This document shows, one piece after another, positions 15,257-46,054 of a DNA stretch of 64,000 nt. Position 1 is the stretch's first letter; each line of letters opens with the position of its first letter. Source of the stretch: Nocardioidaceae bacterium SCSIO 66511 (lineage in GTDB: Bacteria > Actinomycetota > Actinomycetes > Propionibacteriales > Nocardioidaceae); NCBI GenBank assembly GCA_023100825.1, contig CP095846.1, positions 2,046,001 through 2,110,000 of the forward strand, written 5' to 3'. Both the position numbers and the translations under genes were made by a program. Below the pieces are notes generated by a model that did no database searches, was not told the origin of the DNA, and saw nothing but the letters and a program-made list of their open reading frames with translations.

Positions 15257-16350
15257 TTACAGCGGCGGAATCTCCGGTGGCGTTGCCGCCGGGGTCGTTT
15301 CCAGATCACGGAGTACGAGCGACAGCGCGCGCTCCAACTGTGGGTCGTTGCCGGCGACGCGGTCGTGCGGCGCCATCACGACCTCGATATCGGGGTCGAC
15401 ACCGTGGTTCTCGACTCCCCAGCCGAAGTCCTCGAACCAGAACGAGTAGCGCGGCTGCGTCACGCTGGTGCCGTCGACGAGGCTGTATCGGCCGTCGATG
15501 CCGACCACGCCACCCCAGGTACGGGTGCCGACGACCGGGCCGAGACCCAGCGACCGGATCGCGGCGGTGACGATGTCGCCGTCGGAGCCTGCGTACATGT
15601 CGGTCACGGTGACCATCGGTCCGCGGCGCGCATCGGCGGGGTACGACGTAGGGCCGACTCCGCGGGCGAGGTCCCAGCCGATGATCCGGCGGGCGAGCTT
15701 CTCGACGACCAGCTGCGAGGTGTGACCACCGCGGTTGCCGCGTACGTCGACGATCAGCCCCTCGAGTGCGAACTCGGTACGCAGGTCGCGGTGCAACTCC
15801 GCCCAGCCCTCGGACACCATGTCTGGCACATGTACGTAGCCGATCCGGCCGTCGCTGTTGTCGTGCACCCACCGACGCCGACCGGCGACCCAGTCCTGAT
15901 AGCGCAACGGGAACTCGTCGGCGAGCGGTACGACGACGACGTTGCGGGTGTCGCCGTCGCGCCGTGCGATGGTCAGCTCGACAGGCTTGCCCGCGGAGCC
16001 GGCGAGACGTGCAGCGGGACCGGTCTGCGAGTCGACGGGACGCCCGTCGACGGCGATGATCGCATCGCCCGCAGTGACAGCGACCCCGGGCGCCGTCAGA
16101 GGCGAGCGTGCGGCACGTCGCGACGACTCACCCGGCACGATCCGGCCGGACACCCACCCGCGTACCCAGGTGCCGGCTTGACCCCAGAAGGTGAGCCGAG
16201 TGCTCGGCCCGCCGTCGACGGGCGCCACGTACACCTCCTTGGCACCGCCGCGCGTCGCAGTCCAGGCGATACGGGTGCCGTCGGGTGAGATACGCGGCGA
16301 CTGCGCGGGCGTGTGGTCGGAGCTGACGCGGTACGCGCGCCCGCCGTCGT
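15257..16350 (-). pseudogene. Tricorn-type S41 protease remnant (5' end replaced, propeller deleted)
   Basis: Tricorn proteases are about 1050-1100 residues: beta-propellers, PDZ, S41 catalytic domain. Here about 50 residues of the first propeller (GGRAYRVSSDHTPAQSPRIS to RLTFWGQAGTWVRGW) run directly into the PDZ domain (AGDAIIAVDGRPVD) and an apparently intact catalytic domain (YVHVPDM, RGNRGGH, nucleophile in MYAGSDGD, VENHGVDPDIE). Some 550 residues are missing and the first 30 or so are replaced by the dispersed repeat, in frame. No authentic start codon or ribosome site remains; the frame stays open to 16609 through the repeat. A residual product cannot be excluded. Confidence 0.8.
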
Positions 16351-16473
16351 GCCGGTGGTGGTTGCTTACCAAGTAGACATGGTGACACCCCGCTTTGCAT
16401 GGCAGATTCTCCATGCAAAGCGGGAGGTTGCCGTGCTCGCTGGTACGCCCGTGGCCACCGTGACAGGAGGTCA
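16351..16473 (+). repeat. Dispersed intergenic repeat, copy A (hairpin module only)
   Basis: About 123 bases that align base for base with 45831-45953 and, inverted, with 34581-34706. Order: CCGGTGGTGGTTG, ACCAAGTAGACATGGTGA, a hairpin, then GGTTGCCGTGCTCGCTGGTACG. The hairpin has perfect 14-bp arms (16389-16402 CCCGCTTTGCATGG; 16411-16424) and an 8-base loop. The left module of the full element is absent; instead the sequence abuts tricorn coding DNA at about 16350. It ends just before the stop of the sigma factor gene. Confidence 0.85.
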
Positions 16474-34274: not shown

Positions 34275-34440
34275 TGTACGCCTTTGGTGCGACTACCCGA
34301 CTGCCCGGTTCCGGCACGCTGTCGGCCCCGACTTCCTTTGGCTGGGTAAAAGACGCGGCGACGCGCGGAGGCGGCTCTTCGGTTCGGTTGCTCGGCGGCT
34401 TTCCCGGCACTTTGGGGTGGTTTCGGGGTAAGGTTGGGTG
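34275..34440 (+). repeat. Dispersed repeat, left module (copy B prime, forward)
   Basis: About 145 bases matching the left half of the full element at 45655-45800: a CTTTGGTGCGACTACCCG block, CGCTGTCGGCC, then GTAAAAGACGCGGCGACGCG and GGTTGCTCGGCGGCTTTCCC. It lies in the opposite direction to copy B, so the two left modules face each other across 34440-34580. Its right half has diverged beyond confident alignment. Confidence 0.75.
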
Positions 34441-34580
34441 CTTCCCAAGGCGGGTTGTCACGGTCCACGGGACGTGTCCCTTGGGTCAGTGCGGTTTGCC
34501 GTGGGGCGTACGACTGCGGGCTGCGGTTTGCCTTGGTACCAAGGCAAACCGCACGACGGTTGGCGCGAGGCGGTACGACT
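34441..34580. repeat. 32-bp perfect palindrome and short repeats between inverted modules
   Basis: Bases 34522-34553 are a perfect 32-bp palindrome: half-site TGCGGTTTGCCTTGGT followed immediately by its complement. A partial copy of the half-site (TGCGGTTTGCCGTGG) lies at about 34492-34506 in direct orientation. No gene is visible. As DNA it could extrude a cruciform or bind a dimer; as RNA it is a 14-15-bp hairpin. It occupies the place of the conserved hairpin in the other repeat copies. Confidence 0.8.
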
Positions 34581-34882
34581 GAGTGAACTCCTGCCACGGC
34601 AGCCACGTACGTACCGACGGGCACGGCAACCTGTCACTCTGCACGGTGTCCCTGCCGTGCACAGTGGAGTTTCACCATGTCTACTTGGTAAAGCACCACC
34701 ACCGACCCCGCAAAAGCCGACCGGAACCCGTTAGCCGGCGGCGAACCTCACCCGATAGCTGCGGCTCCCGCGTCGCCGCGTCTTTTGCCGAGCCGTCCCA
34801 GTGGGGAAGGCCGACAGCGCCGAGAATCGGGCAGTCGGTTGGTCGTACCGAAGGAGCGGGAAAGCCGACAGCGACGAGGAGT
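34581..34882 (-). repeat. Dispersed intergenic repeat, copy B (full, inverted)
   Basis: About 300 bases which, read on the minus strand, align along their length with 45655-45957. Hairpin module 34581-34706: arms CACTCTGCACGG (34635-34646) and 34655-34666 with one mismatch and an 8-base loop, flanked by GGCACGGCAACCTG and TTTCACCATGTCTACTTGGT. Left module 34707-34882 includes the CGCGTCGCCGCGTCTTTTGCC core. No gene of its own; a 159-residue ORF across it is not supported. The remaining 34883-34989 shows nothing recognisable. Confidence 0.88.
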
Positions 34883-34989
34883 AATGCGTCGGGTGGTCGC
34901 ACTGAGCCGGATTCAAAGCCCTCCGCTGGGCCGCACGTTTCGGCCCGATTTCGGGCGATTCTGGGGCAGATACGTGCGGCCCAGGCGGG

Positions 34990-36321
34990 CTACGCGAGGG
35001 CTCCCATCGGATCCCAGGCCGGGAGTACGACCGGCTCGGAGTCCATCGCCTGCTGCAGCTGAGCGGGCAACGACGAGCGGCGTACGGCGATCTCGAAGAC
35101 GTGCTCGCCGAACCAGTTGTCGTTCATGGTGTAGAAGCCCTTATCGGCGCGCTCGGTGCCCCAGCTGTTCTCGACCCGCCAGCGTCGCGGCTCACCGTCG
35201 ACGAGGTCGACGCCGGTGAAGAGCATCGCGTGGGTCATCAGCGAGTCGTGGAACAGCAGCCGATCGGCCTTGTCCATTGTGCTGTCGCTTCGGTAGACCG
35301 CGTCGAAGTCGTAGAGCTCGGCGTCCCACATGCCGAGCTCGGGGTTACACATCTTCTCGGTGTCGCAGCCGAACCACACGGGCTCGCCGCCCACGATCGC
35401 GTCGACGGCGAGCGACTTCATCTGCTCTGCCTCGACGTTGAGGTACGTGACGGGCGGTCCTCCGACGACGTTGCCGAGATGCTCGACGGTGTACGTACGC
35501 CCGTACGTGCTCTTCGGCCGCGGATCGTGTACGACGCAGACGTACTCGTCCAGGGGGACCGTCACGTAGCGTTCGGCGAACTCCAGCGGAGTCATCTCGC
35601 CGTCGCGGTGGAAGCCCTTGTCCTTATCGGCCCACTGCCACAGGAACGACGCAGGGGGAGTGCCGAGATGGATGCTGAGCAGACGGTGGATCGCTGCGAG
35701 CGCTGACTCCTTGTGCGACTGCAGCGCATCGGCGTCGTCGCCCGCGGCGGCGCGGGTACGAAGATCGAGCGCTGCACGGCGCAGGACCGCAGAGATATCG
35801 CGGTTCATCGGGGCGGTCTTGCTGGACGACCAGGTCTCGGGCATCGCGACCTTCGGTACCAGGCCGTGCTTTCGTACGAGCGCGGTGAACATGTTCCACT
35901 GCCCACCGTCCTCGGCCGGGGTTTCGAGCAGATGCGCCACCGTGCGGTCGTCGACGTCACGGTCGGCGGTCGCGATGATCGACTCCAGCCAGTGGTTCGC
36001 CTTCTCGAACTTGTCCCAGAACAGCAGGTAGTTCTGGGAGAACTCGAAATCTTTCACGCCCAGCTTCCTCGCCGCACCTGCGCGCAGGAGGTTCGTACCG
36101 GCGAACAGCCAGCAGCGTCCGCTCTGCTTCTGGTCGGTGGCGTCCCAGTCGTCGAGCAGGTTCGAGACCGAGTGGTCGATGCTCGTCACGACCCGGCGGT
36201 CGAGCGCGATGTCGTTGACGGGGGTCTTCGTGACGGCGTTCTGCATCATCCGCAGCGTCGGGTCGGAGTCGAACTCCTTCCCGAGGCGGTCGAGCAGGTC
36301 GATGGACAACGCGCGAGTCAT
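34990..36321 (-). CDS. pepC: Aminopeptidase C / bleomycin hydrolase (C1B cysteine peptidase)
   Basis: 443 residues, normal for the family. Papain-like catalytic residues: Cys70 in QKQSGRCWLFAG, His in SLMTHAMLFTGVD, Asn in RVENSWGTERADKG. These enzymes form hexameric cytosolic cages whose C-terminus reaches the active site and makes them aminopeptidases; bleomycin hydrolase activity is typical. The C-terminus here (DPMGALA) is about the expected length. ATG 36321 follows GAGGGGACC. Single gene. Confidence 0.95.
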   Translation of the reverse strand: MTRALSIDLLDRLGKEFDSDPTLRMMQNAVTKTPVNDIALDRRVVTSIDHSVSNLLDDWDATDQKQSGRCWLFAGTNLLRAGAARKLGVKDFEFSQNYLLFWDKFEKANHWLESIIATADRDVDDRTVAHLLETPAEDGGQWNMFTALVRKHGLVPKVAMPETWSSSKTAPMNRDISAVLRRAALDLRTRAAAGDDADALQSHKESALAAIHRLLSIHLGTPPASFLWQWADKDKGFHRDGEMTPLEFAERYVTVPLDEYVCVVHDPRPKSTYGRTYTVEHLGNVVGGPPVTYLNVEAEQMKSLAVDAIVGGEPVWFGCDTEKMCNPELGMWDAELYDFDAVYRSDSTMDKADRLLFHDSLMTHAMLFTGVDLVDGEPRRWRVENSWGTERADKGFYTMNDNWFGEHVFEIAVRRSSLPAQLQQAMDSEPVVLPAWDPMGALA

Positions 36322-45608: not shown

Positions 45609-45654
45609 GTCGCGTCGGCTTCAGCGCTTCTTACGGGCGAACACTCGCCGCCTC

Positions 45655-45957
45655 GGCGCTCGTCGCTGTCGGCTTCCCGTCCAACTTCGGTACGAGTACC
45701 CGCCCGCCCCGCTGGCTTCGCTGTCGGCCTTCCCTGCGTGGTCGGACGGGCTAAAGACGCGGCGACGCGGGAGCCGCAAGTACGGGGCTCGGTTTGCTTG
45801 CCGGCTTTCCCGATTCGGTGGCCCATGCGGGCCGGTGGTGGTCGTTCACCAAGTAAACATGGTGAAACTCCACTCTGCATGGCAGATTCGCCGTGCAGAG
45901 TGGCAGGTTGCCGTGCCCGCTGGTACGCCGGAGGCCACCGTGGGAGGAGTTCACTCA
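45655..45957 (+). repeat. Dispersed intergenic repeat, copy C (full)
   Basis: The reference copy: left module 45655-45830 (CGCTGTCGGCTTCCCG, CTTCGGTACGAG, a second CGCTGTCGGCCTTCCC, AAAGACGCGGCGACGCGGG) and hairpin module 45831-45957 (CACCAAGTAAACATGGTGA, arms 45870-45882 and 45891-45903 with one T-G pair, 8-base loop, GGTTGCCGTGCCCGCTGG, end GGAGGAGTTCACTCAC). It fills the gap after hemQ. The rest of 45609-46054 shows nothing else recognisable. Confidence 0.88.
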
Positions 45958-46054
45958 CGCGCGCCGTCCGCCGTCGCTATGGACCGCCGCCGATGAGTTT
46001 CGCCGCTGATCGTCGTCTGTCGTTCGTACGCATCGACGAGCACCAGGAGTCAGC

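Follow-up and report, generated by a model that had tools for sequence, protein, structure and literature searches.

The window analysed here is a 64,000-nt stretch of the single-contig, 4.61-Mb genome of Nocardioidaceae bacterium SCSIO 66511 (G000). At positions 16389-16424 it contains a hairpin with a perfect 14-bp stem and an 8-nt loop (copy A). Folded as RNA, this hairpin reaches a predicted -25.7 kcal/mol (z -7.0), and 0 of 200 shuffled sequences were equally stable. Two related hairpins lie elsewhere in the window, one with a single T-G pair (copy B) and one with a single G-G mismatch (copy C; Table 1). The three-copy description given by the sequence-only reading thus fits, and the flanks that it had described as nearly constant are similar over 126-159 bp. 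The window contains six 12-bp stems that enclose an 8-nt loop and have no more than one mismatch; eight first-order Markov resamples contained 0-1 each. Copies A, B and C account for three of these stems, and a fourth shares the element of copy C.

At positions 16357-16372, copy A runs into the predicted 5' end of a minus-strand gene (15257-16372). The start of this gene may be miscalled, or the element may extend into the coding region. A coding role of the element itself was rejected: the frame that is open through the hairpin of copy A meets a stop in other copies (aAAGTGAcag), and the variable letters alter amino acids, as judged by eye and not by a formal test. A plasmid or phage origin was likewise set aside, with positions 45620-45980 unmatched in plasmid and phage collections, from which near records are possibly absent. 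At copy B, a right arm was looked for and none was found. The window holds another perfect palindrome, with arms of at least 14 bp, at 2912-2942; it lies outside this repeat family.

Table 1. Features of the three element copies in the window.
Feature	Position in window	Strand	Remarks
Copy A, three-part core without outer arms	16357-16446	+	From own-genome copy searches; alignment row L093
Copy A, palindrome 1	16360-16391	+	TTACCA...TGGTGA core, diverged
Copy A, central hairpin	16389-16424	+	Arms 16389-16402 and 16411-16424; loop 16403-16410
Copy A, third part	16426-16447	+	Degenerate palindrome GGTTGCC...GGTACG; delimited partly by sister-genome comparison
Copy C, type 2 composite	34349-34785	-	Inverted arms AAAGACGCGGCGACGCG at 34769-34785 and 34349-34365
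Copy C, extra palindrome	34523-34552		Perfect, typical of type 2 elements; GCGGTTTGCCTTGGTACCAAGGCAAACCGC
Copy C, three-part core	34611-34700	-	Alignment row L094
Copy C, central hairpin	34634-34667	-	One G-G mismatch
Copy B, outer unit	45637-45752	+	Iterated in other own-genome copies
Copy B, left arm and three-part core	45753-45926	+	Left arm 45753-45769; core 45837-45926
Copy B, central hairpin	45870-45903	+	One T-G pair

The complete element consists of three abutting inverted repeats: palindrome 1, the central hairpin with its 8-nt loop, and a second or degenerate palindrome. Their centres are spaced by 31 bp and the unit measures ~90-115 bp. In G000, 33 copies are part of 295-302 bp composites whose ends are inverted arms (AAAGACGCGGCGACGCG); another 12, of type 2, belong to composites of 407-449 bp with an extra 34-nt palindrome. 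The arms have 124 matches in this genome (1 + 3 in the control). Both are present at 48 of the 84 sites matched by a palindrome 1 pattern, forming terminal inverted repeats that belong to the G000 composites only, and outside them units of ~50 bp are iterated. The core within inverted-end composites and the iterated outer units recall MITEs and BOX-like modular repeats, although target-site duplications were unreadable in 14 site comparisons and a parent transposon did not show among the most frequent protein families beside the elements. Four G000 copies (L065, L085, L089 and L139) represent a core variant with an extra small hairpin between palindrome 1 and the central hairpin.

Elements in the sister genome G001 are simpler. 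A 22-bp palindrome is followed by the central hairpin and then by a second palindrome (15 of 37) or a degenerate one (22 of 37). Copies with two palindromes space them by exactly 62 nt in 15 of 16 cases and by 63 nt in one, and eight pairs of the palindrome core are invariant across 37 sequences; these G001 statistics omit L016, which has a one-base insertion, and the diverged second palindrome of L153. Such regularity might be expected of double-stranded protein-binding sites, either phased palindromic operators or sites for a nucleoid protein, with about three helical turns (31 bp) from each of the three dyads to the next. The constant centre spacing in G001 and the core that does not vary within that genome would suit a binding array, and the independent Y/R variation on the arms of the central hairpin resembles degenerate half-sites. 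However, abutting stems of one fixed length would give the 31-bp spacing as well, pairing is kept between genomes although the cores differ, and the outer pairs of palindrome 1 in G001 change on both sides, which a sequence-reading dimer would not need. We regard a protein-binding array as improbable.

A DNA search of G000 gave 40 scored copies of 91 candidates. The palindrome 1 pattern matched 84 times (1 + 1 in a reversed-pattern control), which leaves 81 family members after three are subtracted; L103, L114 and L087, which belong to the family barely or not at all, are excluded from all G000 counts. The strands are mixed along the chromosome, with 16 plus and 21 minus below 2.3 Mb and 22 plus and 25 minus above, and a role as chromosome-orientation signal was rejected. 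At the DNA level, matches are confined to the genus (2 of 58 genomes, G000 included), and the exact relaxed palindrome pattern matched 6 of 294 genomes of the family. Training on 53 sequences from six genomes gave a covariance model (R1) that reached further: at E<=0.001 it matched 75 of 197 family genomes in 20 of 26 genera, where 6 of the 75 had supplied training sequences and the E-values are rough, with 22 or 11 candidates scored per genome. Among 394 genomes drawn from the whole class, R1 matched 17 at E<=1e-6, 15 from the same family and 2 from one other. Copies are alike within a genome and unlike between genomes, as seen for 10 copies in G036 and 8 in G108. Four genera were first found by a pattern blind to the central hairpin, and in at least two of these an analogous layout is visible by eye (G006, G022). 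Among the open papers of PubMed Central we found no account of such repeats in Nocardioidaceae, which does not prove that none exists.

The two genomes of the second family (f12; G322 and G416) gave 8 and 10 R1 matches, respectively, among 11 scored candidates each, and transfer between families may have occurred. In a collection of public contigs that omits near relatives, a pattern for the core has no match. A more general palindrome pattern, GGTTTACCANNNNNNTGGTAAACC, matches 14 stretches there, of which 5 come from Pedobacter and most of the remainder from other Bacteroidota; it perhaps represents an unrelated palindrome family.

The elements prefer the 3' ends of genes. Based on gene calls by a simple codon-usage caller trained on 11 ORFs, the gaps that hold the 81 G000 copies are convergent in 34 cases, tandem in 39 and divergent in 8, and those of 33 G001 copies are convergent in 7, tandem in 24 and divergent in 2, with 6 more copies at locus edges. 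Among 44 correctly placed loci of other genomes, some of them orthologous or duplicate, 31 are convergent, 12 tandem and 1 divergent; L212, L220, L230 and L233 lie beyond the assumed coordinates, which explains all four cases that had appeared to be inside genes. The intergenic bases of the window are 14% convergent (1,047 of 7,656), 45% tandem and 41% divergent. In the other genomes, the edge of the element is often at most about 30 nt from a stop codon.

This convergent and 3' location, together with the very stable hairpins, poses the question whether the element is a structured RNA of 3' untranslated regions. It could act as a bidirectional terminator or as a stabiliser of mRNA 3' ends, with its pairing selected in the transcript. 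Several observations speak against this. Next to tandem genes, the element points either way almost equally often (23:16 in G000, 13:11 in G001). TTTT is rare in the element rows, occurring in 1 of 76 (G000), 1 of 37 (G001), 2 of 34 (a cross-genome set) and 0 of 17 (G036), and the element does not show the stem plus T-run that marks an intrinsic terminator. No terminator-like site was called at copy A; near copy C there are two weak terminator calls versus 1.0 expected. Finally, at copy A no family of Rfam 15 scores above its gathering threshold; the six weak matches there are microRNA models that stay below it.

The turnover of the element resembles that of mobile DNA. Of two sister genomes, G036 carries 18 distinct elements and G097 carries 3. 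Two sites are common to both, and the third G097 element is at none of the G036 sites examined. The left flanks of 15 more G036 sites were sought in G097 and located in 14 cases, with 85-99% identity, and 0 of these 14 G097 loci gave an R1 match even at E<=1. This means that the element is missing from one genome at 14 of 16 comparable sites; the direction of these changes, gain or loss, is unpolarised. Both flanks are alignable by eye at 12 of the 14 loci. One locus (L320) retains a lone hairpin with the same central sequence. At another (L324), an unrelated 17-bp terminator-like stem takes the place of the element, which speaks for a structured RNA; presence and absence between sister genomes in general argues against such an RNA. 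No target-site duplication was readable in the 14 comparisons. The genus provides a further case: copy C lies between convergent genes that G001 also has, with no element in the gap. The window further contains, in this gap, a native palindrome (CTGGGCCGCACGT...ACGTGCGGCCCAG, within 34910-34990), with a diverged counterpart in G001 (CCCCGTGAGCCGCACGT...ACGTGCGGCTCACGGGG, L009).

Short extragenic palindromes in many copies that are species-specific, located at 3' ends and present or absent at orthologous sites are the hallmark of REP and REPIN sequences, and the proposal of a REP-like element in the sequence-only reading was a good guess. Its further suggestion of a REP-type transposase is not supported. 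The RAYT transposase domain (Y1_Tnp, PF01797) is absent from both genus genomes, G000 and G001, and occurs in only 2 of 197 family genomes, G004 and G010, with one R1 match in G010 and none in G004. If both draws of 197 genomes are identical, as their handles suggest, 74 of the 75 element-bearing genomes lack PF01797. The 25 Pfam families most often seen in neighbouring proteins (40 loci in other genomes; 118 of 162 flanking ORFs in G000) include no transposase and are ordinary metabolic and regulatory families.

The sequence tags of known REPs fail as well. GTAG or CTAC occurs in 28 of 76 rows (G000), 3 of 37 (G001), 6 of 34 (cross-genome set) and 1 of 17 (G036), and CGTC or GACG in 16 of 76, 19 of 37, 19 of 34 and 14 of 17, respectively, the high G036 figure stemming mostly from paired flanks beside the stop codon. 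Judged by these counts and by the alignment consensus, the element itself has no conserved unpaired GTAG or CGTC tag. Since both the tag and RAYT fail, we do not file the element as a REP. The REPs of the GTAG and CGTC superfamilies, in the portions of Di Nocera et al. (2013, PMC3733652) drawn on here, are likewise numerous short species-specific palindromes near the 3' ends of convergent or co-directional genes, and the CGTC repeats likewise have no dedicated transposase. They differ from the element described here in consisting of one unit of 20-40 bp or a dimer, as opposed to three abutting palindromes without a conserved tag; the terms Nocardioid-, actinobacter- and Streptomyces have 0 occurrences in the main text of that paper. 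REPINs, as outlined in parts of Bertels and Rainey (2011, PMC3116915), resemble the element in layout: their mobile unit comprises two inverted repeats that flank a hairpin-forming spacer, and compensatory changes in the hairpins are reported as common. In contrast to the element, whose spacer is itself a separate hairpin with an 8-nt loop and whose genus genomes have no PF01797, those REPs are moved by RAYT.

Could the elements be decaying relics of classical RAYT-driven REPs that have lost their transposase? The REP-like layout, the 3' location and the presence of PF01797 in G004 and G010, the latter with its R1 match, are consistent with this. Yet in G000 and G001, whose copies are many and fresh-looking, the Y1 domain does not occur, G004 has the domain without an R1 match, and the unpaired tag is absent, and a relic origin seems very unlikely to us.

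Three copies are too few for covariation to be demonstrated from the window alone. The G000 alignment comprises 76 copies (74 distinct rows), without L065, L085, L089 and L139 (hairpin insertion) and L125 (partial). It yields a covariation score of 0.100 versus 0.091 in shuffled alignments (reached in 1 of 500), 17 cells changed on both sides versus 7.8 (2 of 500), and 6 pairs with both-sided change versus 3.7 (28 of 500). The column in which T-A, C-G and T-G had been read as compensatory does not behave as such: in 77 G000 rows it contains TG 48, CG 21, TA 5, CA 2 and GG 1, which shows that the two arms vary independently. In G001 the same column holds CA 15, TA 9, CG 7 and TG 6 (n=37). The overall signal in G001 is modest, with a score of 0.175 versus 0.118 and 53 both-sided cells versus 26.1 (0 of 500 shuffles each). 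It arises from the outer pairs of palindrome 1 (columns 5/34, 7/32 and 8/31 changed on both sides) and from two pairs of the central stem, and on the two stricter measures, the number of pairs with both-sided change (8 versus 6.8; 141 of 500) and of further pair types (24 versus 22.8; 167 of 500), it is close to the shuffles. In G036 the excess is slight (0.075 versus 0.057; 17 of 500), and a structure slid by one column still reaches 0.066.

Across genomes, covariation is strong. The cross-genome set contains 34 sequences from 34 genomes, one locus each, with L238 and second copies left out. In it, 22 of 25 pairs changed on both sides versus 15.5 in shuffles, the score is 0.577 versus 0.145 (at most 0.117 for slid structures), and further pair types number 67 versus 46.3, each with 0 of 500 shuffles reaching the observed value. 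The set is biased in that 32 of the 34 loci were fetched by R1, which rewards pairing, and 5 of 34 had helped to train it. Folding the cross-genome alignment without constraint returns the same two hairpins. Compensatory change of the kind claimed from the three copies is borne out between genomes, whereas inside G000 it is weaker than claimed.

Strong covariation across genomes would also be expected of a structured RNA. If an RNA strand, or one strand of single-stranded DNA, were under selection, G-T should exceed A-C on that strand. This test, which the sequence-only reading had proposed in the form of G-U pairs, gives a mixed picture. On the plus strand of the element, G000 shows G-T:A-C ratios of 85:24 in the central hairpin and 73:18 in palindrome 1, mostly from four columns, and palindrome 1 of G001 shows 15:4, as an RNA or a single DNA strand would predict. 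The central hairpin of G001 (34:37), G036 (9:12 in the central hairpin, 3:6 in palindrome 1) and the cross-genome set (12:11 and 14:13) do not show such an excess.

The loops provide a second line of evidence, since both orientations occur, which argues against selection in a transcript. In G036, the loops of palindrome 1 read TC 11, GA 5 and TG 1, and those of the central hairpin GAAACTTC 8 and GAAGTTTC 4 (n=17 each). The central loops of G108 read GAAGTTTC 4 and GAAACTTC 2 (n=8), and the loop centre in G001 reads AA 20 and TT 10 (n=37). At orthologous sites of G036 and G097, with flanks 92-95% identical, the loop is inverted in the central hairpin of one pair (L213/L248) and in palindrome 1 of another (L223/L244). 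The central stem of the latter also carries a G-C to A-T double change, and the former shows uncompensated arm differences as well; a third readable orthologous pair (L249/L253) has one-sided changes only. Such inversions and double changes at orthologous sites could also come from gene conversion by another copy.

Both loop orientations, the double change at an orthologous site, the mixed G-T/A-C balance and the near-even gene orientation suggest to us that the covariation arose, at least in part, in the DNA itself. The G-T excess in G000 is compatible with a role in RNA as well. Overall, we consider it rather unlikely, though far from negligible, that a structured 3' RNA accounts for the element. 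Compensatory changes and loop inversions are known from template switching, in which DNA is copied across a hairpin, and arm-to-arm copying of this kind can yield compensatory changes without selection on structure (Monttinen and Loytynoja 2022, PMC8794818, in the portions cited here). In rRNA genes that study counts 69 loop-only inversions and 6 with a compensatory change. Loop inversions are rare there; here, by contrast, three genomes commonly show the loop in either orientation. The sequence-only reading was right about the pairing, which between genomes is kept through changes on both sides. Its step from covariation to selection on a nucleic-acid structure is weakened, because the inverted loops point to arm-to-arm copying in DNA, and as a whole its interpretation is partly supported.

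With its three-part architecture, its family-wide spread in species-specific sequences, its preference for 3' ends and its presence or absence at orthologous sites, the element is, in our somewhat favoured reading, a non-autonomous REP/REPIN-like mobile palindrome that is moved by an enzyme other than a Y1/RAYT transposase and altered in DNA by hairpin arm copying and loop turning. In this process, the unit would fold into hairpins in single-stranded DNA or extrude as a cruciform, and the non-RAYT enzyme would act as the mover. Copies would persist mainly just after stop codons, where they presumably do little harm. In the folded state, one arm may be copied from the other, or the loop may be turned round, by template switching or cruciform resolution. 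Arm copying would keep the arms complementary as their letters change. The loop inversions and part of the covariation could thus arise through arm copying and loop turning, without the need for selection on RNA.

A bolder version, which we put forward with considerable doubt, holds that mobile triple palindromes spread through the whole family without RAYT, that an undescribed mobiliser places them beside stop codons, that frequent arm copying and loop inversion in place drive the evolution of their stems, and that their compensatory changes result from mutation and not from selection on RNA. Covariation normally counts as proof that an RNA is functional. The element could therefore provide a natural case for measuring how frequently compensatory changes stem from the copying of DNA hairpins, and it would indicate a route by which REP-like palindromes spread without a known transposase.

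In G000 itself, the unit appears to have been built into larger composites with inverted ends, and it now shows no loop inversion and little covariation. Inverted loops number 0 of 76 in this genome, so the loop-turning mechanism rests on the other genomes and not on the window copies. Additional to its 81 copies, G000 carries an element of the simpler G001 type at 3288347-3288436 (L201) and, near it, a lone perfect palindrome at 3289607-3289628 (L114).
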